NCBI GenBank assembly: GCA_903813345.2
Contig: CAIIXF020000001.1
Span: forward strand, 48,193,885 to 48,257,884
Direction of reading: 5' to 3'
DNA: 64,000 bases
Origin: Owenia fusiformis
Taxonomy: Eukaryota; Annelida; Polychaeta; Sabellida; Oweniidae
Shown: piece by piece, positions 3,491 through 60,093 of the stretch
Numbering within the stretch: the stretch's first letter is position 1
Layout: each line of letters starts with the position of its first letter
The notes under the pieces: model-generated
The model's database searches: none
Seen by the model: the letters and a program-made list of their open reading frames with translations, nothing else
Told to the model about the DNA's origin: nothing
Made by a program: the position numbers and the translations under genes

Positions 3491-3773
3491 GAAGCAGGTA
3501 CCATTTTGTATTTAAGGAACGTTTTGAAATTTTCCAATATAGTGACGCATCTTCTGAATTATTCTTTGAGCCTATCAGATCCTACTACATAATGATCTGG
3601 CCAACATCTGTGCCTAGAGCTTTAGTGATGACAGACATATAGGCTAACATCTCTTGCGTACCACCTTCATTTGTATTGTAATGACCCGAGGGCGCCCCAG
3701 GGGAATGACTAACTAACGAGCATAGTGTAACAAGCCAGATAAAGAAATTGAAAGAAAGTGTGCTAAATTCAAT

Positions 3774-3845
3774 GCCCCGTGTGGGAATCGAACCTAGGAC
3801 CCTTGGATCCGAAGTCTGATGCTCTACCGACTGAGCTATAAAGGC
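3774..3845 (-). repeat. tRNA-derived SINE head
   Basis: The reverse complement is 72 nt. It has a good tRNA D-arm/A-box (TAGCTCAGTCGGTAGAGC) and B-box (GGTTCGATTCC). The acceptor, anticodon and T stems pair poorly (only 3 of 5 anticodon-stem pairs form), so it is a SINE-type tRNA relic rather than a working tRNA. The surrounding 3585-3905 segment also has inverted CATAGTGTAAC/GTTACACTATG ends (3721 and 3893), which may mark the edges of an element. Confidence 0.7.
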
Positions 3846-25030: not shown

Positions 25031-25459
25031 ACTGTACTTTTGGAATGGTGTCACAATTCTAGAATTGGCCTAGTTTAATGTACTTGTATGATTCATCTTG
25101 AGTGCAATTTTCAAAGTGTGGTGCAATAGGATATATTTTTGTACTTGAATATCAAACAAGGTGAATATCACTGAAGGCTCACAATTACTTTGCTGTTTCC
25201 CACCAATCGTTTATTTCTGTAAGTATTTTTATGTATTAGTGTTTTCTTATGTCATTTAGCCCTGTTCCAATAACATTTCATATTTGTTATACATATCTTA
25301 TTTACAAGTGTTCATGTACAGACTCGGTTGGCAAATAAAAATGGGTCTTGATCTTTTGTCATGAAGTCTAGGTACTTAAAACAGCTAATGTTAGACAACA
25401 CAATCATGAATTTTATTCTGAACATCTGGATTTCAGGATTGATACTGTATTGTTTCAAC

Positions 25460-26815
25460 ATGACTACAGCTCTAAAGAAATCAATCTTTCTGTCAGATGA
25501 TGATGTCACCAAACTTATTACACTCCCTTGTGACTATCTACGATTTACAATCCCCGAAGCACATGGTATTTCGCGAAGTAAAGTTGTTCCCAAAAAATGC
25601 ATTGCTGATTATGTCGAGACAGGAATAGCAGCTGGGAATATTTCTACCTTAGCGAGTCCACGATGTAACGTTATTCCAATGGCCCTTTTAGATTTATCAG
25701 AAGAACGATTTGAGAATGTGTTTGCTGTTCCTGTCGTTGATACGTTTAGGTTGCTCCCCTGGGCTGGTAATGGGGAACATAAAGTTGGTCAGGTGCTATG
25801 TGACATGTTCAAAGCTAAAGGAGATGAGCTACCAACACCAAGATCAGTAGCCAAGGCACAACTGGGCAGGCTTACATCAATGGGCTTAGATCTCATGATC
25901 GGTCTTGAGTTTGAGTTTCAATTATTTCACGCTGAAACCATGGAGCCTGTTTACAAAGGCACTGATATCTTCGCTGATTTACTGTTCTTACAAAACGAAG
26001 GGATTCTGTACAAGATAGAAAAAGCATTGTCTGATATAGGAATACAAGTTCAGGCAATGCATGCTGAGTATGGTGATGGCCAATTTGAATTCGTGACAAA
26101 ACCAGAGTTTGGAATTAAAGCACTCGATAACTTCTTCAGATTCAAACTTGCTGTAAAAGAAGTTTGTCAGCAAGAAGGATACATCGCATCATTCATGTCC
26201 AAGCCTTTCCCTGGGATTTGCACAAATGGTACCCATTTCAACCACTCTCTTTGGAAAGATGGCGTTAATATATTCTCAGGGGAGAATGACACTAAAAAGA
26301 TGTCTGAGTTTATGAAGCAATGGACAGCCGGCCTCCTATCTCATGCTAAAGCAATGGCCTCCCTATGTTGCCCAAGTGTAAACTGCTATCGTAGGATGCA
26401 TGATATGGCTCTACCAACACTCTGTAACTGGGGCATCGATAACAGAATGGCCCTGATGCGTGTCAAGAATTACTCTCCATCACATACCTACATTGAAAGT
26501 CGTCTCCCATCTGGCATTTCCAACCCTTATAATGTTGCAGCAGCTACCATTGCTGCTGGCCTTGATGGTGTTACAAACAAGCTTGAGTTGCCAAAGGAGT
26601 ACGACCGTGAAGCTGCTGTGCTACCCAAAATTTTTGCAGAGGCTCTAGATGCCCTGAAAGATGATGTCAACTTTTGTGAGGCATTGGGGGCAGAATATGC
26701 TAAGGAATTTATCATGTTCAAGAAAGAAACAGAAGTTGATATCTTCCCGCATGTGCTTGGATCAGATGATGCAAGCTTTGCCAAAGAGAGGGACTCATAC
26801 TTTAAGTTTTGTTAA
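25460..26815 (+). CDS. Lengsin-like glutamine synthetase homologue
   Basis: This encodes a 451-residue class I-type glutamine synthetase fold protein. I chose the start MTTALKKSIF at 25460 because a splice acceptor (GGATTTCAG) ends at about 25436, so the longer upstream frame is probably intron. The N-terminal beta-grasp shows DYLRFTIPEAHGISRSK. The catalytic barrel shows LEFEF (residues 149-153), HAEYGDGQFEF (201-211), NGTHFNHSLW (256-265), NCYRRM (308-313), NWGIDNR (323-329) and ESRLPSGISNPY (346-357). Departures from active enzymes include the ammonia-flap Glu region ('GYEAP' in enzymes, MALPT here) and a changed second His in the HxH motif. A non-catalytic, lengsin-like role is therefore more likely than ammonia assimilation, though that is inference. 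The whole coding part visible here is one exon, and a 5' untranslated exon should lie upstream. Confidence 0.9.
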   Translation: MTTALKKSIFLSDDDVTKLITLPCDYLRFTIPEAHGISRSKVVPKKCIADYVETGIAAGNISTLASPRCNVIPMALLDLSEERFENVFAVPVVDTFRLLPWAGNGEHKVGQVLCDMFKAKGDELPTPRSVAKAQLGRLTSMGLDLMIGLEFEFQLFHAETMEPVYKGTDIFADLLFLQNEGILYKIEKALSDIGIQVQAMHAEYGDGQFEFVTKPEFGIKALDNFFRFKLAVKEVCQQEGYIASFMSKPFPGICTNGTHFNHSLWKDGVNIFSGENDTKKMSEFMKQWTAGLLSHAKAMASLCCPSVNCYRRMHDMALPTLCNWGIDNRMALMRVKNYSPSHTYIESRLPSGISNPYNVAAATIAAGLDGVTNKLELPKEYDREAAVLPKIFAEALDALKDDVNFCEALGAEYAKEFIMFKKETEVDIFPHVLGSDDASFAKERDSYFKFC

Positions 26816-27578: not shown

Positions 27579-30253
27579 TACGGAAAGCTATAGGGGACAT
27601 GCGCATAATTCAAAATCGAATGGAGTTTTAACATGGGAGTGATATCACACACCGCGGCCCAGTCAGATAGATTTCATCGCGCACTGAATGAATTACAGGG
27701 GCCGCGTTGTGCAAAGTTAATTAAAATAAAGTGCGCAGAAATTCCGGCATTCAGTGCGCGATGAAAAAAATGATTATCTGTGAATAAATAACGAATAAAA
27801 ATTCGTGGCACCACGAATTTGATTTTTTTCGAAAGACTGCAGAGTGAACCAGCGAAATGACAATTTTGGATAATATTGATGGCTCTAACGAGGAGAACTT
27901 TGAAATTTCCCGATTCTACCGCGCAGCACATCCAGGACCATGATGCGCACTTTTATCAGATTCGATTCTAATATGGTTTCAAAAATAATGTTCATTAAAA
28001 GAGGGCGTATGCATACAGATTACACATGGCGTTATGTTGAAGTGACCCTTGCAAAGGGTTCCATTGAAAATATATTATTTTGGGCCATTTCATATCTTTT
28101 AATTGATATTGTATAAAATATTTTCAATGTTTGAAAATTATAATCTTATAAATAACATTTTATGTAATAAAACTGTAACGAAATGGTAAATACGGAATAT
28201 GATGCAATACAATGCAGTGCAATATGATGTTATACAATCCAGTGCAATATGATGCAATACAATGTGGTGCAATATGATGTAATACAATGCGGTGCAATAT
28301 GATGCAATACAATGCAGAGCAATATGATGCAATACAATGCAGTGCAATATGATGCAATACATTGTAGTGTAATATGATGCAATACAAAGCAGTGTTATAT
28401 GATGCAAAAAATGCAGTGCAGTGCAGTGTATTGTATTGCACAGCATTGTATTGTATTGCACTGTGTTGTATTACATTGTATTGAATTGCATTGTATGGTA
28501 TTTTATTGCACTGCATTGCACTACATTGTATTGCACTGTATTGAACTGCGATGTATTGCACTGCATTGTATTGCACTGTACCACATTGTATTGCACTGCA
28601 TTGTATTGAAATGAACTACATTGTAACTGTATTGTATTTTATTGCACTGCATTGCACTACATTGTATTGCACTGTATTGAACTGCGATGTATTGTATTGC
28701 ACTGCATTGTATTGCACTGTACCACATTGTGTTGCACTGTATTGTATTACACTGCATTGCTTTGTATTGCACAGTATTGTATTGCATTGTCTTGATTTAC
28801 ACTGCATTTTATTACACTGCATTGTATTTTATTGCAGTGTAATGTATTGTATTGCACAGCATTGTATTGTATTGCACTGTGTTGTATTACATTGTATTGA
28901 ATTGCACTGTATTGTATTTTATTGCACTGCATTGCACTACATTGTATTGCACTGTACCACATTGTGTTGCACTGTATTGTATTACACTGCATTGCTTTGT
29001 ATTGCACAGTATTGTATTGCATTGTCTTGATTTACACTGCATTTTATTACACTGCATTGTATTTTATTGCAGTGTAATGTATTGTATTGCACAGCATTGT
29101 ATTGTATTGCACTGTGTTGTATTACATTGTATTGAATTGCACTGTATGGTATTTTATTGCACTGCATTGCACTACATTGTATTGCACTGTATTGAACTGC
29201 GATGTATTGCACTGCATTGTATTGCACTGTACCACATTGTATTGCACTGCATTGTATTGAAATGAACTACATTGTATTGCACTGCACGGCATTGTTTTGC
29301 ACTGTATTGCATTGCACTGCATTGTATTGCATTATATTGCACTGTATTGTATTGCATCGTATTGCACTGCATTTTATTGTATTATATTGCACTACATTGT
29401 ATTGTATCATATTGCACTGCATTTTTTGCATCATATAACACTGCTTTGTATTGCATCATATTACACTACAATGTATTGCATCATATTGCACTGCATTGTA
29501 TTGCATCATATTGCTCTGCATTGTATTGCATCATATTGCACCGCATTGTATTACATCATATTGCACCACATTGTATTGCATCATATTGCACTGCATTGTA
29601 TAACATCATATTGCACTGCATTGTATTGCATCATATTCCGTATTTACCATTTCGTTACAGTTTTATTACATAAAATGTTATTTATAAGATTATAATTTTC
29701 AAACATTGAAAATATTTTATACAATATCAATTAAAAGATATGAAATGGCCCAAAATAATATATTTTCAATGGAACCCTTTGCAAGGGTCACTTCAACATA
29801 ACGCCATGTGTAATCTGTATGCATACGCCCTCTTTTAATGAACATTATTTTTGAAACCATATTAGAATCGAATCTGATAAAAGTGCGCATCATGGTCCTG
29901 GATGTGCTGCGCGGTAGAATCGGGAAATCTCAAAGTTCTCCTCGTTAGAGCCATCAATATTATCCAAAATTGTCATTTCGCTGGTTCACTCCGCAGTCTT
30001 TCGAAAAAAATCAAATTCGTGGTGCCACGCATTTTTATTCGTTATTTACTCACAGATAATCATTTTTTCATCGCGCACTGAATGCCGGAATTTCTGCGCA
30101 CTTTATTTAAATTAACTTTGCACAACGCGGCCCCTGTAATTCATTCAGTGCGCGATGAAATCTATCTGACTGGGCCGCGATGTGTGATATCACTCCCATG
30201 TTAAAACTCCATTCGATTTTGAATTATGCGCAGGTCCCCTATAGCTTTCCGTA
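27579..30253. mobile_element. Foldback element with 0.85-kb inverted arms
   Basis: The two ends are near-perfect inverted repeats, starting TACGGAAAGCTATAGGGGAC on the left and ending with the complement at 30253. The arms run to about 28430 and back from about 29405. Direct copies of ATGTAAT flank the element (27572-27578 and 30254-30260), consistent with a 7-bp target-site duplication. Each arm has an inner hairpin, CATCGCGCACTGAATG and its complement at 27675-27690 and 27748-27763. The loop is a TTGCA/TGTATTG satellite. No transposase is encoded. The open frames in the loop on both strands are by-products of the repeat. Confidence 0.9.
28405..29420. repeat. ATTGCACTG/TGTATTG satellite loop
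   Basis: Low-complexity sequence built from 'ttgcactgcattgtattg' units fills the loop of the foldback element. A higher-order unit of about 55 bp, beginning ATTGCACAGCATTGTATTGT, recurs at about 28437, 28852 and 29088. Longer blocks around those sites are also duplicated. Stop-free frames exist on both strands only because the repeat has few stops. Confidence 0.9.
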
Positions 30254-38003: not shown

Positions 38004-39795
38004 ATGTCTCCAATGAGATACTCTCAAAGTGAGCCTGTCATACAGAATGGACATGCAGCGACAAATGGAATCAAGGGTACGATACCCTATTTGTTTATTT
38101 TTTATTTAAAATTTTCAGGTGTCTTTATTGATAGATCTGTCTTAATTGATGGATCTTTAATACTATATTCAGTTTACATCTATACTTAGCATAACGACAA
38201 AATGAAGCTACTTTCTATCTAATCCATTATGATATAAACAGTTACTAATTATGTCATCTCACATGACATATTGTTTTTAATCAAATCAACAGCTCCGACA
38301 CATGATAGAGGATAACAGGTTCTAGAGCTGGTGAACTTTTTGGATGGCCATGTTATTTTCTGGCAGTCATTTTGGAAGTTCCTTGAGTTGATACATTTGA
38401 GTTTTATCAAATTCATACACATGATAGAGTATACCAAATTCTAGAGCTGATTGACTTTTGGGTGCCCATCTTGTTTTTTGGCAGCCATTTTGAAAGGTTT
38501 ACGATAAATCTTGTCATCCCGATCAAGGAAAACTGGGATTTGGATTTTCTTCAAATCCGTACAAATGATATAGGATACCAAATTCTAGAGCTCGATTAAC
38601 TTTTGGGTGCCAATCTTGTTTTCTTGCAACCATTTTGGTTTTTCAATAAATCTTGACATTGCGAATGCAGGAGGTAATTTTGGCCATTTTGGCGAAGTCT
38701 TACACTATTTGTATATTAAACTTGCACAAATAATTGTTGTGGTTTTGTAATTTAATTTTACTTCCATTTTCAGGTAAACCAGGACTGCGTCGTAACAGCA
38801 GTATCATTCCACTAGTTCCAACAACGCACAAAGAGGACGTTCCCCTTGTATTCAGAGAGCCTCATATTAACGGTGGTTTCCGCCAGGTTGACCAGCCGTG
38901 GCATTATTACTTCTTGAGTATATTCCAAGTCCACAATGAAGTCATGAATGTCTGGACTCATCTTATTGCAGCCATAGTTATGATCAGCAAAATCTGGAAA
39001 TACTCGCATGAAGTTGATTTCGTGAATGATGCCTACACGTGGCCATTTCTAGCTGGTTTAATATGTGGATCACTGTTGTATGTCTGTAGCAGTGGAGCTC
39101 ACTGTTTCCAGTCGAAATCAGAATTAGTTCACTATGTTGCCTTTATGGTCGACTATGCAGGTATAGGACTGTATGGCCTGGGGAGTGTTATTGTACATTA
39201 TCAATACTGCAGTGAGGATAGCCTATACGAGTTGCTCAAGAATGTCTACTTGCCAGTTGGTTGCCTTCTAGGCTTTTGTATATGTCTATGTTGTACTATA
39301 TCAAAGATATATTACACTAGGCCTTACCCATTCACCCGTAAAATGTGGCAAATGACGCCAGTGGGTTGCATTTACATATGGTTAAACATGCCGATTGTTC
39401 ACAAGGTTTACAATTGTTATATGTATGAGCATGGCTGTGGAGAAAGTTTCACTTACCATATACATCAGATCCTCTGGTTTTTAGCAAGTGCAATCTTCTT
39501 TGCTTCGTCCTATCCTCAGAAGTTTAACCCAGGAATGTGTGACTTTATTGGACACAGTCACCAACTTTTCCACATCTGCATTATGATTTGCACCAGCATT
39601 CAAATGGATGGTGTATTTCTAGATATGCAACAAGATCGTGAGCATTTGATCAAAAGGGGCATACCAACATTTATGGATGCCTTCGGGCCTGTTATTCTCG
39701 TTGTAGGATTAGAAATTTTGAATATAGCCATATTTCAAAAAATAGCAAAAGATAAAATAGCAAAAGAGAGTAAGAGTAACGTTAAATTTGAATAA
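38004..39795 (+). CDS. Class II PAQR / membrane progestin receptor-like
   Basis: Two coding exons, 38004-38076 and 38774-39795, join in phase 1 to give about 364 residues. The first contributes MSPMRYSQSEPVIQNG and the join restores GIKGKPGLRRNSS. It is a seven- to eight-helix membrane protein of the PAQR family. Family motifs are HNEVMNVWTH (residues 78-87), the SxxxH metal site (Ser130/His134 in SSGAHCF), VDYAGIGLYG with Asp151, and the C-terminal HxxxH pair (His287/His291 in GHSHQLFH). LVFREPHINGGFR before helix 1 and the overall layout match membrane progestin receptors (PAQR5/7/8) rather than adiponectin receptors. The protein would sit in the plasma membrane as a steroid-responsive receptor or metal-dependent hydrolase, which is family knowledge. 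The C-terminus is lysine-rich. An AATAAA overlaps the stop and another lies at about 39856. Confidence 0.92.
38285..38660 (+). repeat. Intronic degenerate tandem repeat
   Basis: About three diverged units of roughly 125-170 bp lie within the PAQR intron. Each has 'acatgatagag.ataccaaattctagagct' then 'gacttttgggtgcccatcttg' and 'ggcagccattttg'. It resembles the tandem units of the CGAAC-terminated elements in style but not in sequence. Confidence 0.7.
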
Positions 39796-46430: not shown

Positions 46431-49400
46431 TTACAATGTCTTGAGTCTTTTCACCATAGGCCCATCACCACTAGCCGTAGTGCTAGAGACAGGCACCACC
46501 ACAATGGTCTTAGTGCCCCCAGGATTATTCCCGCTAGAGGCCATCACTGTTACAGTGGTAGGGTGTCCTATAGATGTTCCAGGTGTTGATGAAAGTGTGG
46601 CATATGTCACTGTAGGCTTATGGCCCTGGATCTGGCTCACTGTTATAGGCTTATTGATGATGTTGCCAACATGAGCATGAGAGGTAGAACTTGTCTTGTT
46701 AATGGTGATCGTGTTTGAGTTTGCAATCAAACTGGTGGTCTTTGTTTCGCTGGTTTCCATGGTACCCATGTTGACAGCACTACCAATGTCAAAAAACTGC
46801 AAAGACAAAATCACAATATAAATTTCAAGATCAGATTATAGAAAGCTTATAGCTGGTTGTCAAATCAAAAACATGATTAAAATATAGTTTACAAGTTATA
46901 TATGGGCATTTTACGTAATTTATCAAACAATGGGTTATACTGGACTCACATGGAGTAGATCAGAAAATAAATGAGGCAAACATTTGAGAGGCCACTTATC
47001 AAACAATTGAAGACTCATATAGACACATTTTAAAAGTGCAACCAATTGAATTGTTAGAAGGAATACAAATGAACCACCAAGACCTAGTGTTTTTTACCAA
47101 GAGGTAGTAAAATAGTCACAATATACACCAGTATCACTTTTAAACAGTGTGGGAATCTTACCGATCTCACTTCTCCCATAACAGCTATGGGTGTGTCACC
47201 TGTGGCAGAGGCCACCTTGTGTTCAACCAGGTAGAACATGTACTCATCATACAGTAGACGAATCAAGTGGAACGAACCAAAACTAGCAGCACTTCTTAAA
47301 GTCAGATCTCTGATCACCATTGAACTGCAAACAAAAGAAATGTCGGTAATGATGTCTTTTAACCACATCAACTGCAACAGTAATTGTTATAGTGTTCTTA
47401 ATGTTTCATTTTACTTTACTTTTTTCAAGATCTAACATTCATGTTATTCCCTTCAATTGCTCAAAGAGGCATTAAGCATCAATAAAATATATACAACTAG
47501 TTTTATAATTCAATCATTTTCACCTTTCTATAATATAGAAGATCCTCTTTATAAATTGAGAATATAGTAGCAATTTCCAATAAACCCTTATAGTACATCA
47601 CCAAAGAAGCTACAAAATATTGGCCAGATTCAAGATGTCATGAATCACAATGACACAGTTTTCATACGAGACCAAAATTTTCTTTCTCCCAGTGCTCTAT
47701 TCCACCTACACTTACCTATAGAAGGACCATTTGAGCAGGAATTGTCTAGCAGCTTTGGGAAAGTTATCACTGCCTTCATGAGGCTTGAGGACTTTGTTAA
47801 CCACACCCTCTAGCCAGCTGGCCCACTGCTCTAGCGAGTTCTGTTGCTGTAATGTCTTCTTGAAGTCCTGCTCTAGCTGGGTCACAGTGGCATCTTCACA
47901 CTGGCAGACCCAAGAAGCTTGCTCCTGAAATAGGGATAGTGTATATTAATACATTGCTGAGAAGTCAATTTTGATGGATAACAGGCTCAATTCTGTTAAT
48001 TTCAAAATCATTTAATTCTTGTCTCTTACCTGTACATTGGCAAAGTCTACTCTGTTCAGATCTGTTAACATCTGATTGATCTGAGATGTGTTCTGTAGGA
48101 CTGCTCGTGCTGCCTGAGCGAGATGATTCAACGATGTGTATCTACGTAAAGTCTGGGCAAAGGCTATGGCAGCGCCAGACTTGCATTTCACCATCTCATC
48201 AGGTACCCCTGTCATGGCACCCTTCAACCAGCCCTCTAAACTCTTAGCAAAGTTACGTATAGCTTGTGTGAGGGAACCTGTAAGCACAATAAGGCACATT
48301 AAAGAATATATCAATGTCAGTAACAAATAGGTTTTTCAGAACCCGAAGCATGAGCTTTCTCTATTAGGAAAAAACATAATCACTCAACTGAAATGTACAG
48401 CCACAATTAAGGATAAAATTCAAATTGATCATTTTTGTTTTTTGTTTGCTGATTACATTCTATGTTCTCATTACTAGAAATGAATCCACTAATAAGTATC
48501 CCATAATTTATAATTGTATGAACATACTTGGTATAGGCCTGAGCACATCAGGGATGAGGACTTCAACTAAGGCCTGGTAGAATGCATAGTCAGAGCGGCG
48601 GATATATTTCTGTACTGGCGCCATTCGACAAAGTGCATGCAGTTTCTCTTTGGGTAGCTGTCTCTCTGCCTCATCACTACAAGGCAATAACAATATTAAT
48701 AATAATCATATACAAGTTCTATACAGTTCGACCATTTTTATCATTTGAGGATTTTTTGACTGTCCATTGAAAATCCAATGTCAACAAGATTCTAACATAC
48801 ATTTATATGTTGCCTTAACATGTAAAGTACCACCTTCCATTTGTTACAGATTCCAAACTCCTGCCACCATCCACAAAAAAAGTTGGAGACTATAACAATA
48901 TGCCACCACTTGTGGCGAAGACATAAAAAGTGTACTTACTTTGGCTGGTCTGAGTTGCGCCAGAAGCCCTGCCAGAGAGCCTCAAATAGAGAGAACTGGA
49001 GATTCACAACCACATCTAGTAGAGCCTGGAATACAATCCATATTATCATTTACCAGAGCTTACAGCATATATACACAGTATATTTACATGTGGGTTCGGT
49101 ATTGTACTGGTCAGATTAATTAAAGATGGGTCAAGATTCTCTGTGCAATGGGTCAGCTTGCAATTGTCAACCATCGAGGAAAATGATGGCTAATTAATGA
49201 ACTAAAACTGGTACCCAATTTAGTTACTGACACCAACTGCCAGAACTAAATATTCAACAGACTCCAGACACATCTGATCCTTAATAACGAAAAAGTATTT
49301 AAAATAAATAAAAATAGAGTGCTGTTCTTTCCCTTCAAGGCAACATACCTCACAATGCTCTTTATATAAAATTTCCATGATGCGCACATGGTCTTTAGTG

Positions 49401-52400
49401 ATACCATCAGGCAATATAGTGCCAGCCAGATCAATGTGTTTGAAGTTAGGTAAAGCAGTAGATGCATCCCCGAGGAACTGTTGATGTTGCTGTTGTTGTG
49501 TGGTAGCCTCACTCTGAGCAGGAGTGCCTTCACTTCCGTCAACCTCACCTTTCACCATTGAGTTCTTGAATCTTGAATAAGACATATAACATAAATGATC
49601 TCGTCTAAATGCTCTGAGGTGTAATCTAAGGTATGTCTATGAAATGTTAAAATTATGCAGAATCAGAATCAAAAATAAATATTATTTTACAAATGTTAGT
49701 GTTGTAGCTTAAATAATCTGATTTAATTGTATGTTCAAGTATGGCCATCTAGAGCTTGGTTTGACCATTACATTAATATCATGAAAAAATATTAATTCAC
49801 ATTTACAAACATTTTACATGCATATATATAACATGCAATTCATGCAGACTACATAAATAAAATATTCAAAAAGCACTTCTAATTTATGTACTCATTCCCA
49901 TAAACTTTCTAGCAGTGGAGAAAAGTGAAAACAGTGCTTCTGTCACAAAACTTTCTAAATACAGGTGAATAGTACAATAGTACTGTATTCAAAGAATCAT
50001 ATGAAACACTGGTTTTCATATAGGTTGCAAAAGAATATAAAATGCTTTCACTTTTCTACACTTTACAAATCTAAAGCATTAACTGTAATATAACTACCAA
50101 ATACCATGCAGTTTCCAATCACCAAGTCAATCCAAGCAAAATAAGCCCATGTCCAACTTCACTGGGGATCAAACAAAGACATTTGTCTTCGTTTCAACAT
50201 GGCCAGACTTGTGGAAGCAGAATTTGTAACAATTTTTGTTTTCTTGATTCAATCACTGTTATCCTCCAACTTTCAACTAAATATTTGGCACATATGCAGT
50301 GCGTACATTCCAGTTTAGAACAATATGATTTCATCTCAGATATACATGTTTGGATATTTACAAATCAATTTCCTCACTTAAGAAATGCCGACAGTCTCAC
50401 AGAGAAATGAAGTATTAAACGAAGACAGCAAATTTAAATAAATTAATCAACAATGAACTCCCTTGGTTCAACTTTCTAATTTAATAGTAAATTCACACAG
50501 AGCTAGGCAATGTGTGTCCGATTCCAGCCAATCCAAACATAGTATTCACATAATGAACAGTGTGTGAAATATCAATAACACATTTGTTGTGTACAGTTGC
50601 TAAGCGATTGAGATTGAAATTGAGTTTTCCAATACTTCGATCCTTGCAAAAAGTTTCATTGAAAATATGTTCTTTTAGTGATTTTGTATCTTTTAGGTGA
50701 TTTTATAGAAAATATTTTGCAAATGTGTGAAAAGAATTTAAGCCCAAGACTCAATGCATTGTGGCTGCTTCATTCCACTCAAATGTTGTTTCCTAAACTT
50801 TGCAATCCCTGTGGAGTCATGCAAAGATACTTCGTGGTATGGTTCAGCACACAATTTGAGCCCAAGGCTTAAATTCTTAAATGTCCTGCTTTCTCTGTGA
50901 CTACCTGTCTACCACCACCAATCTGTTGCTTCAGGGCCAGCCATCTAATGGAGTCTGTTAGGAAAGATCTAAGCTAACAAGTTAAAGGAGAGAAGGAGGC
51001 CCCATCTATATTGCAGATTTTCTCATGATTTCAATCAGTTTTCACAACTACAAAGGATAAATTGTTGATAATACAATAAATCATTGATTTATTTTTTATT
51101 TTTCATTTATTTTTTGTATTTGTTGTCTTTGTGAATTGAGAGAAATCATGAATAGAACTGCTAGCTGTGTATGGGGTGAAGAGAATGTGGGATACTCCAT
51201 GCATGCAGATGCAAACTGACCTTGTAAGTGGAGGCTGACGCTGGGCTATCGTCTCCTCATCTTTCAAATGGATCAGCGGAGAGTTGGGCTTGATCCGCAA
51301 GCCATAATAGTGATACTTTGAATTGTTCCTGCAAGAGAGATTCATAGCTATGATGATGAGTCCACACACACAACCTACCTTCGCTGAGTTGTGATTGGCT
51401 GGTGTCTAATGGCCATGTTTGTCTGCTCATCTGTGAATGCATTCAGTGAGGATGTGCCTTTGATGCGAATTCCGTAGTAGTGATACTTGCTATTTCCCCT
51501 ACAAGAGATTAAATAAAGCATGCATGCCATTGTTTCTTTGAGATTTCAGTTTCCGTGCATCGGTAGTCAATTCAGCAAGTGATGTTAGAAGCCAACAGTT
51601 AGTCAAATCACACACAACAGCAACTAACAATAAATCTGCAACAGGAAGTTAGTAAACAAGCACACTTGAAAAACTCTTCACAATAACTTGGTTCTTGCAG
51701 CGCTTGGTCTTGAATTTTTAAAAAACAGCACTACCAGTTGTCAAAATTTCTCATTAATTAAACAGTGTCGAATGTGAAGTGTTTTGCATGGGTGCATACA
51801 ATACAAATGTTGAGATAGAAAAATAACAGAAACATTTATCAACAATAAATATATGAATAGAATAATTTAACTCTTATATAATGTATGAACGCTGATAAGA
51901 TGCCAAATGTGACAATATGGTCTTTTTCACAAATTTCTATCAGTTTGACTTCATGTTTCAATCATGAACAAGTTTTGAATACTGAACTCTCAGTATTTTT
52001 CAACACTATCTCATTTTGCAAATTTTGAGAAATCACAATTTTTTACTATTCTTTAGACCCTAGACTCCCAATCACCCCATGGCGCAAATAACGGTTAAAT
52101 AATAAACAGTGATCATGTCAACCCAATGTTATATTTCCAAGTGGATTTAATTGGCAAATTTCGCTCCAATTATTTTTCACTATTTTACCCCATCGCCAAT
52201 CATACAAAATTTAATAATCACACACGAAAAATACTGGCAGTACAGTAAGCAATTTACGACAAAAGCATTTGTCGTTGCTTTATCAAAATTTGTTCATGGT
52301 CATATTCTCTTCCCAATACCTATATTCAGAGAATAAATATTCCATTGGCTTTACAATTAACTCACTGGTAAGCTCTCATTAACTTTACACTACAAATATT

Positions 52401-55400
52401 GTAATTGGTGAAAAGTGGTTGACTTTGACTGACATGATACACTCATATATGTAGATGATATATAGAGTTCACAATGTGAACACAAACATAAGGCAACAAT
52501 ACAACTGGACAAAGCTCTGTCTGGAGATGTCAACTACTTCTATGCAAAGAATTCAAAGATTTCTGGCTCAATTACAGGCACCCGCCCCCCACCAACACAG
52601 TCTTATTACAACAAATCCATGACGCAAACTTTTTGACACAGGAGCTACTTTCCCAGGATTTATAAGCTTGAGGCCAGTAATGATAAATTAAGGAAGTTAA
52701 GTCTTTAATAGAATAGAAAGCATAGTTCTCTACAGTAGCAGTCAAAAACAACATCTATCATATTGAATACTGATTCATTTCATTTCTTTCACTCTAATCA
52801 TTTATGAATTTAAACTTGGAAAGTAATGTGTGCTTAACTAAGTTTATCTATATTGAGTCCTTATGTATTGTAACTACTATTGGATATGTACATGTCATGT
52901 ATGCACAAAAATATTAAGAAAACATTGTCTGTGAATATCTATTACTAAAAATAAATAAAATACAAAATAGCAAGCACCAAAACACTCAAATTTTGAATAA
53001 TGGACAAAGTGGTAAATGAAAATATTGGTGCTTTAGATGTTTATGAACTTTACAGAAGGTAGTGTTAGACTTGAAGTGTTCTGTATAGAAGAGTGGTAGA
53101 ATGTGGTGAAAGCAGAACAGCACTGCACGCTAACAGAGAGAAAGTTTGTTGTTACGTTGGCAACCTAGTTTACCTGGTACCCAGCCTCCTGGTCCTTAAG
53201 CCAAGGAACACTGAGCGGATAAGCTTCCCAAATGATGCAGGATTCATGGGATCCATTTTTTGTTCCTGACAGTGTCGTAGATAATGACTATACAGAGTGC
53301 TTCTCGGCAGACTGACTCCTTCAGCAGTTTCATAGTTATCAATAAGCCATTGCACCTATAGTTGTAACAAAACACGTCTGGATTATAACTACCAGGGCCA
53401 GTCTCTTCATCGCCATGGCAACCAGGTGTCACCATGACGACACTGCAGAGACTATGCCTTTTATGTGAGCCAGAGTAATCACCTCCCCCCACCTCCCGAA
53501 GTAGCTGAGCCCAACATAATGCATAGTCATCACACATCACAGAGCCATGTACAGTGAGTGAAACCTATGTCAGTATATGGATGTCAATACAAAGTCAGTA
53601 TAGTACCTGGTCCCTAGGCGGCGAGTACGGAGTCCCACAAAGATGGAACGTATAAGCTTTCCAAAGAGAGGTGGACTCATGGGATCAAGCTTCTCCTTCG
53701 AGCAGTGTCGCATATACAGGTTGTATAGTGTTGCTCGCGGCAGACTCAAACCCTCACATGTTTCAAAATTATCGACTAGCCACTGCACCTGCACGGGGCA
53801 AATAGAGCATGTACTACATATCATAGAGCTGATCTCAGCACTGTCCACACATTCAATCATAATCTAAATCTAAACACACAGTATCAAAAGTGTATTTAGA
53901 TTAAGAAATGAATGGCAGAATTCACATTGACAATGCTTTCTAAATGATTAATCTGCCACCAAATAGCATGCTTCATACTTACAGTACATCCAATTAACTA
54001 AAATCATCATATCATGCAATGTCTTACAGCCCCCAATGCAAGCTAGGAGTATATGTACCTACAATACATTAACCGCATGCCGTTATGTACTAACCCATAA
54101 ATATATCAACTGACCATGCAAAAACATCCATATAGCATAGGTTGATCACATACATAGCAAAGTATTCACGATATAAATTGAAAACTAAGTGAAGCATGGT
54201 GTGCAAATGTTGACAATAATGAAAAGTTAATTTCTTTATGGTTCAACACTCCCCTCCCCATTATAACTTATAAGTTGAAAAGTTATTTGCCTCTTACTTG
54301 AATTTTTCAAAAAATGAACATTCTTTACTGAGGAGTCATCCACCCTCTCAAGCCTAATGTAGTTTACTGTTAACATTTGAACACCATCCCTTAAGACTCT
54401 TAAGATTGCAACTACTGTAAAGCATAAAACCAAAATCCCTATTCCCAAATGAAAGCATAACCAACGGTAATTTAAACAATAACCTATTTCACAATGCTTA
54501 AATGTGATCATGAATTGTTTTGCTAGAGATGTGATTGTTAAACAGTCTGCATTATTTTAGCTGTATTATCTGTCCCTATCATGCATGTTAGTGTACTTGA
54601 GCTACAGTGAGAGAGGGGCTGCAGTCCATGATACAACAGTATAGAGTTAAGTACCATGATGCCTGCTACAGAAAACTGCAACCCATCTCTCAAAGATAGT
54701 CAACATGCGATTGAGGTTAGAACTTAGGCTTGAATTTTGTAGGATAATTATTATGCATACATATTATACATGCATAGTAATCTATGTGTTATTTTATTAC
54801 ATTTAAGCATCTACAATGATCCAACCATTATTACATGTGCCAGGATAATTCAAAGCAATAAATGAATGAGAAAATAAACATTTCATAACTAATATCTCTT
54901 CTGAAACAAGCACCAGAGGCAAAGCATTAAGTCTCTTTCTACTCATAAATGCCATGGTCACATTTGGTCCGATTTCCAGTACCAGCGCCTGGCTAGATGA
55001 GTATTTTGTCCAAAACCCCATTCAGGTTTCATTGGCCACGCGCCTTTGTTGGAGATTGGAGCAAATGAGACCACGGCATTAAATGAGACATTTCACAATT
55101 AGCTAAATGGGTACATATGCACATGGCTGAATCAACAGCATTTTAAAATCTTTAAATTAGTTTAGAATTAGAATACAATTATGTTTTCCAAAGTCCAACA
55201 CTTGGTCAATGGTGCTTAGCTAGCCACTTAGGAACAACCTTTTCATGTAGTCACAAATAGTAATATACCATTTTACAGCAATGTAATATCCAATCAACAA
55301 ATCTTAATACAAACATGTTACTGACATGCTTGGGCATTCAAGATTGACATCTATCTAAATACAATACAAATATTAAATGATATCAAGTTGAATACGTTTG

Positions 55401-58400
55401 TTAATGTACAGTATGTCACACTTTTTTAATATCATAGGTTATGTATTGGACTGTCATTGTCATCCCAAGATACTCAATATGTCAGGAACATATATTAGAT
55501 GTCTGACAATTGTGTTAATTGGTTACTACAACTGAGCTTTTTTAATATTACTGAGAAGTAACACATGATCCAACCTTAAACATCACCATGCAAAAATAAA
55601 ATTTTCTAAAGGACATATACATTTATACAAGCAACTAGACTAAATGGTTCATTCCTATAACCCTACCCAAAAAATACAACGGATTTCTCAATAATAGATT
55701 ATAAACCATAATTTCCAAATCTTTAGATAACTCTAAAAACAGGGAGAAACCAACAAAGCATTTAAGTAGATCATGAATATTTCAGAAATCATGTGATAAA
55801 TGTTACATTATGGTTGTGGAAATCCTCTTGTATAAACCATGCAGTGGAATGATATGTAAACTTACAGTGGCTGGGGATGCTCGAGTAGTGTGTGTCAAAG
55901 GATGTCCTTCCCCATCCATGGTACCACCCTGTACCAAATATGTACCACCCTGATGGGTCAAGATCTGACCCTGGAGACCACCCATCTGAAATAAATGGTG
56001 GAATGGTTTCAATACAGTTTATACATTGCATATTTTATGCTCAGCATATTGTTAGCTTCATATTATGAAAGTTGATCAAATGAATTTTCCTTGGCAAAAA
56101 AACATAAACAATGGTATCAACATGACAAAATGTCACCACCTAACTGCATATTCAAAAGTGTACCACTTGTTACATATGGCAAAGTCATACGTCTCAAAAA
56201 ATGGTGGCTGAAACAATACCTCTTTAATTCATGATACTCATATGGAAATAAAGTTACTATTTCAGATATTTTAAGACAAGATATAGATAACTAATGTTTA
56301 CCTGCACTGTGCCAGTGCCTTGAAAATAGTTCCCAGAGACTGGAGTATACATGGTCGCCTGACCGTATTGCTCATAAGATTGCCTACAACATATAAAGAT
56401 GTGTGAAACTTTGGATTCATGTAGACCAATACTAAGAATTCTGTTCATTAACAAGGCATATTTTAATGTACATCGGCAAAAAAAATAGAGATCAATACAC
56501 AATAGATGTGAGCTGTACAAAATCAATCACTAATTTCCTGATTGTTGCATGTTATTAAATGTAATCAAAATAACATTCCCCAAATTGATGGCGCAATAAT
56601 TTCGATTCGAAATTGCATGTTGAATTTAAAATGAAAATGTACTGTGCTAACATCATACAGCAAAAAATGAGAGATCATATTAAACCTAGGCCACTATCTA
56701 CTTTAGAAGATGTAAAAAGCTCCATTTAGAACTTTTTGATGTACAATACATAATTATGTATATGGCCCATCATCTTAGTAGAATCTAAATAAACAAGGTC
56801 AAGCTAAGCACTGTTTCAAAGGGTACCCTATATCAGTAATAAAGCTCATTAAAAGCAAAAGTAACATATTAATAAAAGTATGTATTATTATCAACAAAAT
56901 AAACAAGATTTGAGATAATGCTATAAGGTGAGAGTCAAGATATACCACTTGGCTGAAATGTCTTCGAAAATAAAATGTGGCCTACAAAGAATGAACCTAG
57001 TATGTAAAAATTGCTATAAATCATGTGAAAGTCTATAGATTATAAGCAAATCCACAACCCAATCACCACAGTTTAATAAATAAACCTCTACTTAACAAAT
57101 CAACTGAGAAATTAATCTTCATAAAGGTTTAGAATTTGAACCTTCTTAAGGTAAAGAAGAATGAAGTTCTAATTAATATAGACGCACATATAAACCAGTT
57201 AATACTGAATATGTGTGGACTGTGGAATGAGAACTTCACTTTCAAATGTCCTTTAAGATAAGTTGGTTTAAAAGGTTGAATGTTACTTAGAAATATGGAA
57301 ATATATCAAACACAACCTACCACAAATATGAAATCCACAGTTTCAGGAAAGTTTAAAATGTGTACATGTCTCTTAATTACCTATCAGATTTCAACTCACC
57401 AAATTTCACAAATTAATTTCATCACATATTTTGCATCAAATAAAATCATTAAGCCACAAATCTTTTATATCAAGAAAAGAAATTGCAGCCACTAAAATAA
57501 TGGTAGGTTGTGACGATAAAGCAAACCAAGTACCATGTGTGGTGATAAATACACGAGGCTTAAGCTGAAGCTGTCCCGACAGACAGTACAGGCATTTATA
57601 GACTGATAGATGGTTATATTTAATCTTAAACATAGGTGGGTAATGGGTTGGGTTAGATACTCTGCCACACAAGCACTCAACTGTCATCTGAAGATACAAC
57701 AAACATGTATTACAATGGACTTCAGTAAAAACAAATTGGAATAACAATGTAGAAGTCGTAATATTTTGCAAGGTAATTTGAAATCGCAGACACTCAAGAG
57801 AAATCTTTAATTAACACATAGAATTCTTTCAGAGACTTTTTAGAATAGTCAAGTGTAACACCCTGAAGGCTTGAAATAGGAGCACAAAACTGTAGATTTA
57901 GTTCCACAAAAGATTTGGATGGATCAATCATTCACATCAAAACTCCAAACAAATAGATATAAAACACGCTGAAACATTTTGCTCGTGTACATGTGCTTGT
58001 GTGTAGAGTGAGGAGTAGTGAAGGGAGCGTACATCTGTCCGTTAGTGGCAGCATGAAGACTAGGGTCCGGTTCTACATACTGTACATGAGCCGGGTAGAC
58101 GCTCTGGGCAGCAGCTTGCTGCAGGGTAACTGTCTCTTGGGATTGATCAAGCTCCTGTCCACCAGAACCAGAAACTGTAAACAACAATTCAACATTTCAC
58201 TCGAGGCTATGGTGTTTGTTTATTAGCACTCTATTGAGTTTTGACTGACCATTGGATTTTCGAAAATCAATATCAATCATCCATTCTGTCTGATGACCAT
58301 GACATGTAGGATATTTCTGCTCTCAATATTACAAAAGCTGTAGCAACTTTTAGACAAGTACTCTCCACCATCGAATACTTTTTATATTGACTTTCTTCTT

Positions 58401-60093
58401 CAAACCAGTAAGTTGTGAATTTTGAAATTCATGAATATTTTGTGATTTTACCAGTCAGATTTTTTCTGAACATTGTCACAAGAACACTTAAACCTATTTA
58501 CCTGCAGTGGTGACAATAAATTGTTGACCAGAGTGGGCCTGGGCTGGCTGGATGATTGTTGTAGTTCCAGGTTTCTGGTTGTTACTGGCCTACAATAATA
58601 CACTGAAGTAGTAACACACCATCTGTCATGTCTAAATATGCAATGTAAAATCAAAATGCAATCCAAAAAATTAATCCAAAATTAATAATGTTAATCCAAT
58701 AAACATGCACATTGTATCCATTGTCTAATAATCCAAATAAAAATCTGATCTCAAGAAAATCATATTTGAATATCTAATCTTGAGTGATTGCTTCATAAAT
58801 AAACTATGATCTTGATGAACTATTACTTAAATCCACAGAGGTACTCATTTTCATTACTTATATTATTTCATTTCTAAATATTGTATATTCTTAAACTGAT
58901 CAATGAAACAAGCATCAAATTACCAAGGTGATTTCTAGGGTCATAGTTGCTGTTCAAAGATAATTTATTTTCACTTGGTAACAGTTGTTGTGAAGCCATA
59001 GCAACGATAGGCAACTAAGAGTATCTGGGAGCCATTAATCAAGTGTACAATGTACAGGTGAGGGCACTATCAGTAAAAATTATAAAGTAGGAAATGAAAC
59101 TTTTAATCTTGTGATATTTTATTAAAAAAGCTGTATCACATGGATGTTCTAAACCCTTTAAAATGCACGGTAGGTCAAAATATAATACATGGTAGATCAA
59201 AATAGATGTGTACATAACCTATATGACTGATAAAATACAAATCAAGAGGAGCAACTCATTAATTTCTCATTTTAATTCATTCAGAAAAAGAACTGTTCAC
59301 ACAAGATTCTTCTTTGTAATTCAAGTGCCTTTGTTTTCAAACCATTCTAGCATGTTTCTAACATTTTTATTTGAACAATTTCTCCATCCCCACATTTATA
59401 TTATTTAGTAGACTTGAGTGCTTGTATCTAGGATAACTCTATTGCTATGCAAATATTAATATTTAATCTCTATGGTAACTTGGCAACCACCACTTTAATG
59501 TTTCTCTTATCATGGCAATGGCACAAAGGAGAAAACATATCAAAATGTGGTTGAATTTCAATTGGTTTGACTTTTAAAATAAAATAACTCTAAACCTTAC
59601 AGGACTATATCTCACAATTCTAATCTCAAAACCTGCCAATGCTTTATGTATAGACACTATATCATTCATGATAAATGAAATGAAAAATTACATCATTATC
59701 TTATTTCATATGTAATTGTAGCAGTTAAACCAGATGTCTAACACTTTATATCTGATATCTGACAATAATTATGTTCATCTTTCACACAACTGTAGAATAC
59801 ATTTGGTAGTCTCCATATATAACATGTACACAAATTTTCATCGTGAGAAATATTGATGCATTTTTAGAAAATAGCTACCTTTTTACAATACTACATGTTT
59901 CCCCATGAATACCACAGAGTAGGGACAAAATAAAGAACTTCAACAAGTTGTGTGTAGTTATGACAAATCTGCAAACTAATGATAAAATAAAAGTTCACAT
60001 ACTAGATTAGATATAAAAACTCACTTGTACAGATTGTTGTATGGTAGTTGCATTCATAGCCTGCATGTCAGATACAAAAGACTGGCTGGCCAT
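46431..60093 (-). CDS. RFX1/2/3-type transcription factor
   Basis: This is a complete gene. Its exons, read 5' to 3' on the minus strand, are 60025-60093 (start [10 protein letters not shown]), 58502-58589, 58033-58174 (or to 57991), 56302-56383 and 55866-55985. Then come the DNA-binding exons 53607-53788 or 53174-53355, and 51379-51498 or 51221-51328. The rest are 49349-49571, 48940-49025, 48528-48676, 48030-48277, 47716-47924, 47171-47324 and 46431-46796. All junctions are GT-AG and the phases add up to one frame of about 745 residues, close to RFX2/3. Order: Gln-rich N-terminus; winged-helix domain from about residue 168 ([24 protein letters not shown]); then the RFX B, C and dimerisation regions ([55 protein letters not shown]); and a Ser/Thr-rich tail. 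RFX1-3 proteins bind X-box promoters of ciliary genes as dimers (family knowledge). The unusual point is the doubled DNA-binding exons, listed separately. Confidence 0.96.
51221..51328 (-). CDS. RFX wing exon, version b (108 nt)
   Basis: It encodes, from a split Arg, [19 protein letters not shown] and a short Glu-rich end, in phase 2 at both sides. The acceptor is CTCTTGCAG and the donor is ACAAG|GTCAG. It is homologous to 51379-51498 but four codons shorter, with Asn instead of Gly after the first Arg. It lies only 50 nt downstream of that exon. Confidence 0.9.
51379..51498 (-). CDS. RFX wing exon, version a (120 nt)
   Basis: It encodes [19 protein letters not shown] and continues with [12 protein letters not shown], the form closest to vertebrate RFX1-3. 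It is phase 2 at both ends. The acceptor is CTCTTGTAG and the donor is GCGAAG|GTAGG. It completes the second strand of the DNA-binding wing and the linker. Confidence 0.92.
53174..53355 (-). CDS. RFX helix exon, version b (182 nt)
   Basis: It encodes [20 protein letters not shown], then [19 protein letters not shown], then [17 protein letters not shown]. It starts in phase 0 after a TATAG acceptor and ends in phase 2 at a GTAAAC donor. This version is the closer to canonical RFX1-3 ([17 protein letters not shown]). By my count 43 of 60 residues are identical to version a. Confidence 0.95.
53607..53788 (-). CDS. RFX helix exon, version a (182 nt)
   Basis: It encodes [20 protein letters not shown], then [19 protein letters not shown], then [17 protein letters not shown]. 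Length and phases are identical to version b, which lies 251 nt downstream. The DNA-contacting FGKLIRS and GLRTRRLGT stretches are kept, while the loop and helix between residues 23 and 41 of the exon differ most. Silent sites are heavily diverged, so the duplication is old and both versions have been kept under selection. Confidence 0.95.
53789..55865. other. Long RFX intron before the alternative exons
   Basis: This 2.1-kb intron separates the 55866-55985 exon from the first alternative helix exon. I see no further RFX-like exon copy in it and no repeat that I can place. It is a candidate location for splicing-regulatory elements. Confidence 0.4.
58994..59487. promoter_or_regulatory. X-box-like half-sites in RFX intron 1
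   Basis: AGCCATAGCAAC at 58994-59005 matches the right half and spacing of the RFX X-box (RGYAAC), with a weak left half. GGCAAC follows at 59010-59015. GGTAACTTGGCAAC lies at 59474-59487. Half-sites of this length occur by chance, so autoregulation is only a possibility. Confidence 0.25.

Follow-up and report, generated by a model that had tools for sequence, protein, structure and literature searches.

The window, the whole stretch of 64,000 nucleotides analysed here (C1:48193885-48257884 of the Owenia fusiformis assembly; features are given in window positions), carries on its minus strand a gene of the RFX family, of which exons 3b to 12 were delimited and whose stop codon lies at 46431. 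Its beginning is sketched by two probable upstream exons with approximate ends, one at 58501..58575 placed from its frame only and one at 57970..58173 placed from frame and composition only, and by exon 3 (56302..56382), the ends of which were read by eye from the sequence. These are followed by the common upstream exon 3b (55866..55986), which terminates in phase 0 with ...SPAT, by the exons of the DNA-binding domain described below, and by the common downstream exon 6 (49349..49571). Exons 7 (48940..49025), 8 (48528..48676), 9 (48030..48277), 10 (47716..47924) and 11 (47162..47324) encode the B/C/D region, which starts in exon 7 and ends in exon 11, and exon 12 (46431..46796) carries the stop codon. 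All of these exons are on the minus strand. Elsewhere in the window, the plus strand has one long open frame that encodes the catalytic domain of a glutamine synthetase (25352-26815, 249 bits), an open frame with a Haemolysin-III/PAQR-type domain (38734-39795, 132.8 bits) and a reverse transcriptase fragment (1652-2356, RVT_1, 58.6 bits), the last of which is probably a retroelement remnant. A repetitive stretch at 28160-29030 with open frames on both strands is probably a simple repeat and not a gene, and a marginal tRNA match of 31 bits, against a gathering score of 29, lies on the minus strand at 3773-3845.

To which branch of the RFX family does this gene belong? The downstream dimerisation region gives four BCD_RFX matches, which span profile positions 34-269 and represent each stretch once at the locus, and five pieces of human RFX3 align there at 57-94%. 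In pairwise comparison, the stretch encoded by exon 4 is 67-85% identical to the DNA-binding domain of human RFX1 (PDB 1dp7) and much weaker in its likeness to RFX5, and the wing reads SKYHYYG. A gene of the RFX1/2/3 type, with its conserved B/C/D region, is the likely reading of these comparisons. What would set it apart from that subfamily is the presence of putative alternative exons for the domain, the like of which is not described in the accessible portions of the RFX papers examined; the portion of PMC2533330 at hand, which counts RFX isoforms, holds no word beginning with 'splic'.

A search of the whole genome returned 11 RFX-domain matches, two of which are exons 4a and 4b of this gene. 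In the paralogues on C6 (two), C10 and C7, each DNA-binding stretch is single within 7-10 kb, besides weak matches at chance level; in this count the match on C11 was covered by a 3.2-kb locus only, and the C10 matches near 36.7-36.8 Mb were left out. A match at C6:5983268 was considered as a second copy within a paralogue and was rejected, as it is the next exon of that paralogue (residues 46-61). The C10 matches that were set aside, at 36715854-36716081 and 36805911-36806138, are equal RFX-domain-like matches of 31 bits in open frames of 450 amino acids, 90 kb apart, and are perhaps a recent duplication. When exon 4b was compared with viral contigs, 86 stretches matched the pattern and none was confirmed. 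Other traits of the genome agree with Owenia fusiformis. Its 38 forkhead matches are spread over nine of the twelve large contigs, with four inside 16 kb on C8, three inside about 20 kb on C10 and two at a distance of 30 kb on C3; for the 12 chromosomes of this species, PMC9539403 gives Fox genes on nine, tandem duplications of foxQ2 on two and a linkage of foxC with foxL1, under chromosome numbers that do not correspond to the contig numbers used here. Three matches to annelid erythrocruorin linkers pass the cut-off weakly (E 5e-7 to 5e-4), and a search of the assembly for COX1 gave none.

Two doubled exons in the DNA-binding domain

The initial annotation had recognised two adjacent exons of 182 nt, both running from phase 0 to phase 2 on the minus strand and both encoding the same winged-helix part of the RFX DNA-binding domain. 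These are exon 4a (53607..53788) and exon 4b (53174..53355), separated by an intron of 251 nt (53356..53606), and their AG acceptors and GT donors were confirmed. A recount agrees with the 43 identical residues of 60 given there, and both translations are open; 55 of the 60 residues are similar (BLASTP E 2e-36). Each exon on its own is matched by Pfam RFX_DNA_binding, 4a with 73.4 and 4b with 86.5 bits (cut-off 27). Exon 4a, which is 67% identical to human RFX1, is the more diverged copy, compared with 85% for 4b. The earlier statement that the use of both exons, or of neither, breaks the reading frame also holds: joining 4a to 4b runs into a TGA at 53246-53244, and all three joins tested that skip exon 4 (3b-5a, 3b-5b and 3b-6) meet early stops.

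A second doubling, which had escaped the initial annotation, concerns the next exon, which encodes the DNA-reading wing. Exon 5a (51379..51498, 120 nt) encodes the wing and the subsequent linker, and exon 5b (51221..51328, 108 nt) a second copy of the wing. Both are bordered by AG and GT and are in phase 2 at either end, each of them joins exon 6 in frame, and 20 residues are identical over 35 aligned codons. As both lengths are multiples of three, the reading frame is kept when 5a and 5b are used together or when neither is used. Between them lies an intron of only 50 nt (51329..51378), the retention of which leads to a stop codon. It is the shortest of the introns sized, whereas the 11 other introns delimited in the gene have at least 105 nt. 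The distances are also larger elsewhere in the genome: the aligned blocks of three RFX paralogues lie at least about 95 nt apart, and the members of 28 pairs of myosin exons at least about 126 nt. The myosin pairs are those that satisfied the criteria when 49 of 92 matches were picked by eye for having a neighbour, and since the profile search behind them scored 65 of 210 candidates, the matches number at least 92. RNA folding around the 5a/5b intron is ordinary (z -0.30), by which an unusual RNA structure at this intron was ruled out.

None of the four doubled exons shows a stop, a frame break or a damaged splice site, and all four combinations of an exon 4 with an exon 5 can be read without interruption from exon 3b up to the stop codon at 46431. 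The RFX_DNA_binding scores of the combined products, against the same cut-off of 27, are 106.7 bits for 4a5a, 102.3 for 4a5b, 119.8 for 4b5a and 115.4 for 4b5b. In place of the two versions of the DNA-binding domain that had been expected from this gene, there could be up to four, given by two by two exons, and the alternative unit would be the whole domain, not its helices alone.

Constraint and origin of the copies

The pattern of differences between 4a and 4b argues for conservation as protein. The two exons differ at 64 of 180 nt, and these differences fall on 18 first, 8 second and 38 third codon positions, out of 60 third positions. If 64 differences are placed randomly on 4b, the mean over 20,000 trials is 23.1 identical residues of 60 and the maximum is 34, compared with 43 observed, and 88% of the trials contain a stop. 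For exon 4, dN/dS is saturated or dS is unusable, and therefore the argument for constraint rests on simulation. The simulations assume equal branches, an ancestor like 4b (like 5a for exon 5) and an omega of 0.05 on the other branch. With 4a neutral and 4b constrained, no setting, at 400 trials each, went above 40 of 60 residues, against the observed 43. An omega near 0.1-0.2 for 4a was the best fit to the data, while an omega of 0.3 is not fully rejected, with 4 of the 8 matched trials in one setting and 0.036 in the next. For exon 5 with one copy neutral, every trial with matching third-position differences stayed below the 20 of 35 that are observed, one unmatched neutral setting touched this value, and an omega of 0.3-0.5 fits. 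These simulations argue firmly that both copies of exon 4 have been selected as protein through most of their history and have not drifted neutrally. They also speak against neutral drift of one exon-5 copy, but less so than for exon 4.

How can such an arrangement have come about? When flanks of 200 nt and the 50-nt intron were compared by blastn, only chance matches of 9-10 nt were found beyond the exons. Since no similarity is left in the flanks, the duplications are old, and a recent duplication is ruled out. An artefact of assembly or haplotypes is ruled out by the 64 nucleotide differences between the copies of exon 4. A tandem duplication of the whole gene is ruled out as well, because the B/C/D matches occur once at the locus and exons 3, 3b and 6 are single; tblastn with these three exons in the window gave no second match better than E 0.16. 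The doubled exons lie on the strand in the order 4a, 4b, 5a, 5b, and from this order the simplest origin would be two independent tandem duplications of single exons.

Proposed choice of one exon from each pair

We consider it likely, at roughly three chances in four, that the exons for the DNA-binding domain of this RFX1/2/3-type gene form two successive pairs and that the members of each pair are mutually exclusive. The two exons of each pair are adjacent and homologous, have matching phases (0 to 2 for 4a and 4b, 2 to 2 for 5a and 5b) and are of equal or similar length (182 and 182 nt; 120 and 108 nt). Splicing would take either 4a or 4b, which encode helices H1-H3 together with the strand that leads into the wing. 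It would then join either 5a or 5b, which supply the wing and linker. The chosen exons would be linked to the common upstream exons and to the common exons of the B/C/D dimerisation region, so that up to four versions of the domain could be carried on one protein body. In exon 4, exclusivity would be enforced by the reading frame, as inclusion of both copies or of neither leads to an early stop in each of the joins tested, from which mRNA decay is predicted. In exon 5, where every combination stays in frame, exclusivity depends only on the short intron, and it would most likely come from crowding, because 50 nt are too short between a donor and a branch point. A distance of less than 50 nt between them serves to flag possible steric hindrance in the accessible part of a survey of human genes, in which 57 cases, or 9% of the clusters, are counted (PMC5740500), and any branch point inside a 50-nt intron is necessarily closer than that to the donor. 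The earlier proposal of mutually exclusive exons for the helices agrees well with the DNA evidence of equal lengths and phases, an enforced frame, constraint on both copies and intact splice sites, and is to be corrected in its extent, as the unit was incomplete and the wing exon is doubled too.

The layout can be explained in other ways as well. Every combination of the exon-5 copies being in frame, it might be that only exon 4 is mutually exclusive and that 5a and 5b are cassette exons, which are included together or skipped to give a protein with two wings or with none. A wingless product made by joining 4a to exon 6 still passes the Pfam cut-off with 75.5 bits. Against this, splicing of 5a to 5b needs an intron of about half the size of the next shortest one sized, and skipping deletes SKYHYYG, which belongs to the part of the RFX1 wing that contacts the major groove, as far as the available portions of PMC2533330 and PMC4333399 go. 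We regard this arrangement as improbable, if somewhat less so than the two explanations that follow. One is regulated unproductive splicing, in which 4b, with 5a, 5b or both, makes the working protein and 4a serves mainly as a poison exon, its joint inclusion sending the mRNA to decay. The TGA met when 4a is joined to 4b begins 73 nt before the end of 4b and has further junctions downstream of it, which speaks for such a role, and the donor of 4a (CAG/gtacta) matches U1 at 6 of nine positions, which is the low end of the 6-8 found in this gene and equal to exons 3b and 11. But a pure poison exon need not preserve an RFX protein, whereas 4a keeps 43 of 60 residues in spite of changes at 38 of 60 third positions, with an omega near 0.1-0.2, and its products with either exon 5 are full RFX domains; this role for 4a is thus quite unlikely. 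We give equally small credit to the idea that each pair has a single working exon, the other being an old duplicate whose use was lost recently. It would agree with the greater divergence of 4a from human RFX1 (67% versus 85%) and with the fact that 5b alone is without the wing glycine, while the intactness of all four exons, and the long-term constraint on both copies, which is firm for exon 4, point away from it.

DNA contacts, known parallels and meaning

In the accessible portion of PMC2533330, the RFX wing W1 is placed in the major groove and helix H3 in the minor groove, and nine residues are said to contact DNA, of which the first is Arg, or Lys in RFX5/7, and the third likewise Arg, or Lys in RFX7. 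If these positions are mapped from that description, the arginines of LPR and LIR fit the first and third contacts, and as they are present in both 4a and 4b, the earlier view that the DNA-contact stretches are kept in both exons appears to be right. The helices differ around them, with YNLYM versus YSHYL, and SPPLF versus NPASF directly before FGKLIR. In the wing, a glycine follows the arginine in human RFX1, RFX5, exon 5a and the four paralogues of this genome that were read (L009-L012), and among the wing sequences compared, 5b alone has an asparagine there. As the contact blocks are likely kept and the wing tip and surrounding helices differ, the isoforms probably bind the same class of X-box sites with different affinity or preference. 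Such tuning is plausible from the sequence, while a wholly new target site finds no support in it.

The initial annotation knew of no RFX gene with alternative DNA-binding exons, and the literature gave no precedent either: among the top-ranked papers of full-text searches, with most subscription papers outside their reach, none is described by its title or summary as dealing with an RFX gene whose DNA-binding exons are duplicated or mutually exclusive. The papers that name both RFX and a mutually exclusive exon use RFX at most three times each, and in the accessible parts of the subset examined it is a marker gene, the name of a regulator or a part of RfxCas13d. The nearest analogue found is FOXP1, in which, according to the part of PMC11701043 available, exons 18 and 18b (FOXP1-ES) are mutually exclusive inside the DNA-binding domain, the rest of the protein is common, and the choice of exon is reported to alter which DNA motif is preferred. 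FOXP1, however, is a forkhead protein of human and mouse with one such pair, whereas the Owenia gene is an RFX gene with two consecutive pairs spanning the domain, known from DNA alone. Both routes to exclusivity, a length not divisible by three and a short distance from donor to branch point, are known from human genes, and several mutually exclusive clusters occur in one transcription-factor gene, CUX1; the human clusters are validated by RNA-seq, and in the available part of that survey the CUX1 clusters are not stated to lie within a DNA-binding domain (PMC5740500). Tandem homologous exons of which one is chosen are also a feature of muscle myosin heavy-chain genes, and the annelid Capitella has seven such clusters in its Mhc gene, as given in the part of PMC3912159 at hand; there, the product is a motor protein and not a transcription factor. 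In Owenia, a locus at C9:37986009-37994334 (L024) has 12 successive exon matches to one stretch of the myosin head (profile residues about 27-81). Ten of the 12 stretches are without a stop, in the remaining two a stop comes early, ahead of the common TFSG/TYSG block, and two members are nearly identical; it looks like a mutually exclusive cluster of a muscle myosin gene. With 12 homologous myosin exons in it, this genome probably splices such arrays. Mutually exclusive exons in DNA-binding domains being already known from FOXP1, the novelty here would lie in the RFX family and in the pairing of both exons of the domain.

In nematode, fly and mouse, the genes for cilia are activated by RFX factors, whose RFX domain is highly conserved. 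It is possible, although as a whole rather doubtful, that two linked splicing choices give one gene of Owenia four DNA-binding proteins, with the set of helices and the wing chosen separately so as to tune minor-groove and major-groove contacts separately, with X-box preferences that differ from one kind of ciliated or sensory cell to another, and with all forms able to dimerise through their common B/C/D region. If the proposed splicing is true, one regulator could address different sets of targets by splicing, and the exon pairs would reveal, as a natural experiment, the residues that are important when an RFX protein reads DNA with its wing in the lead.
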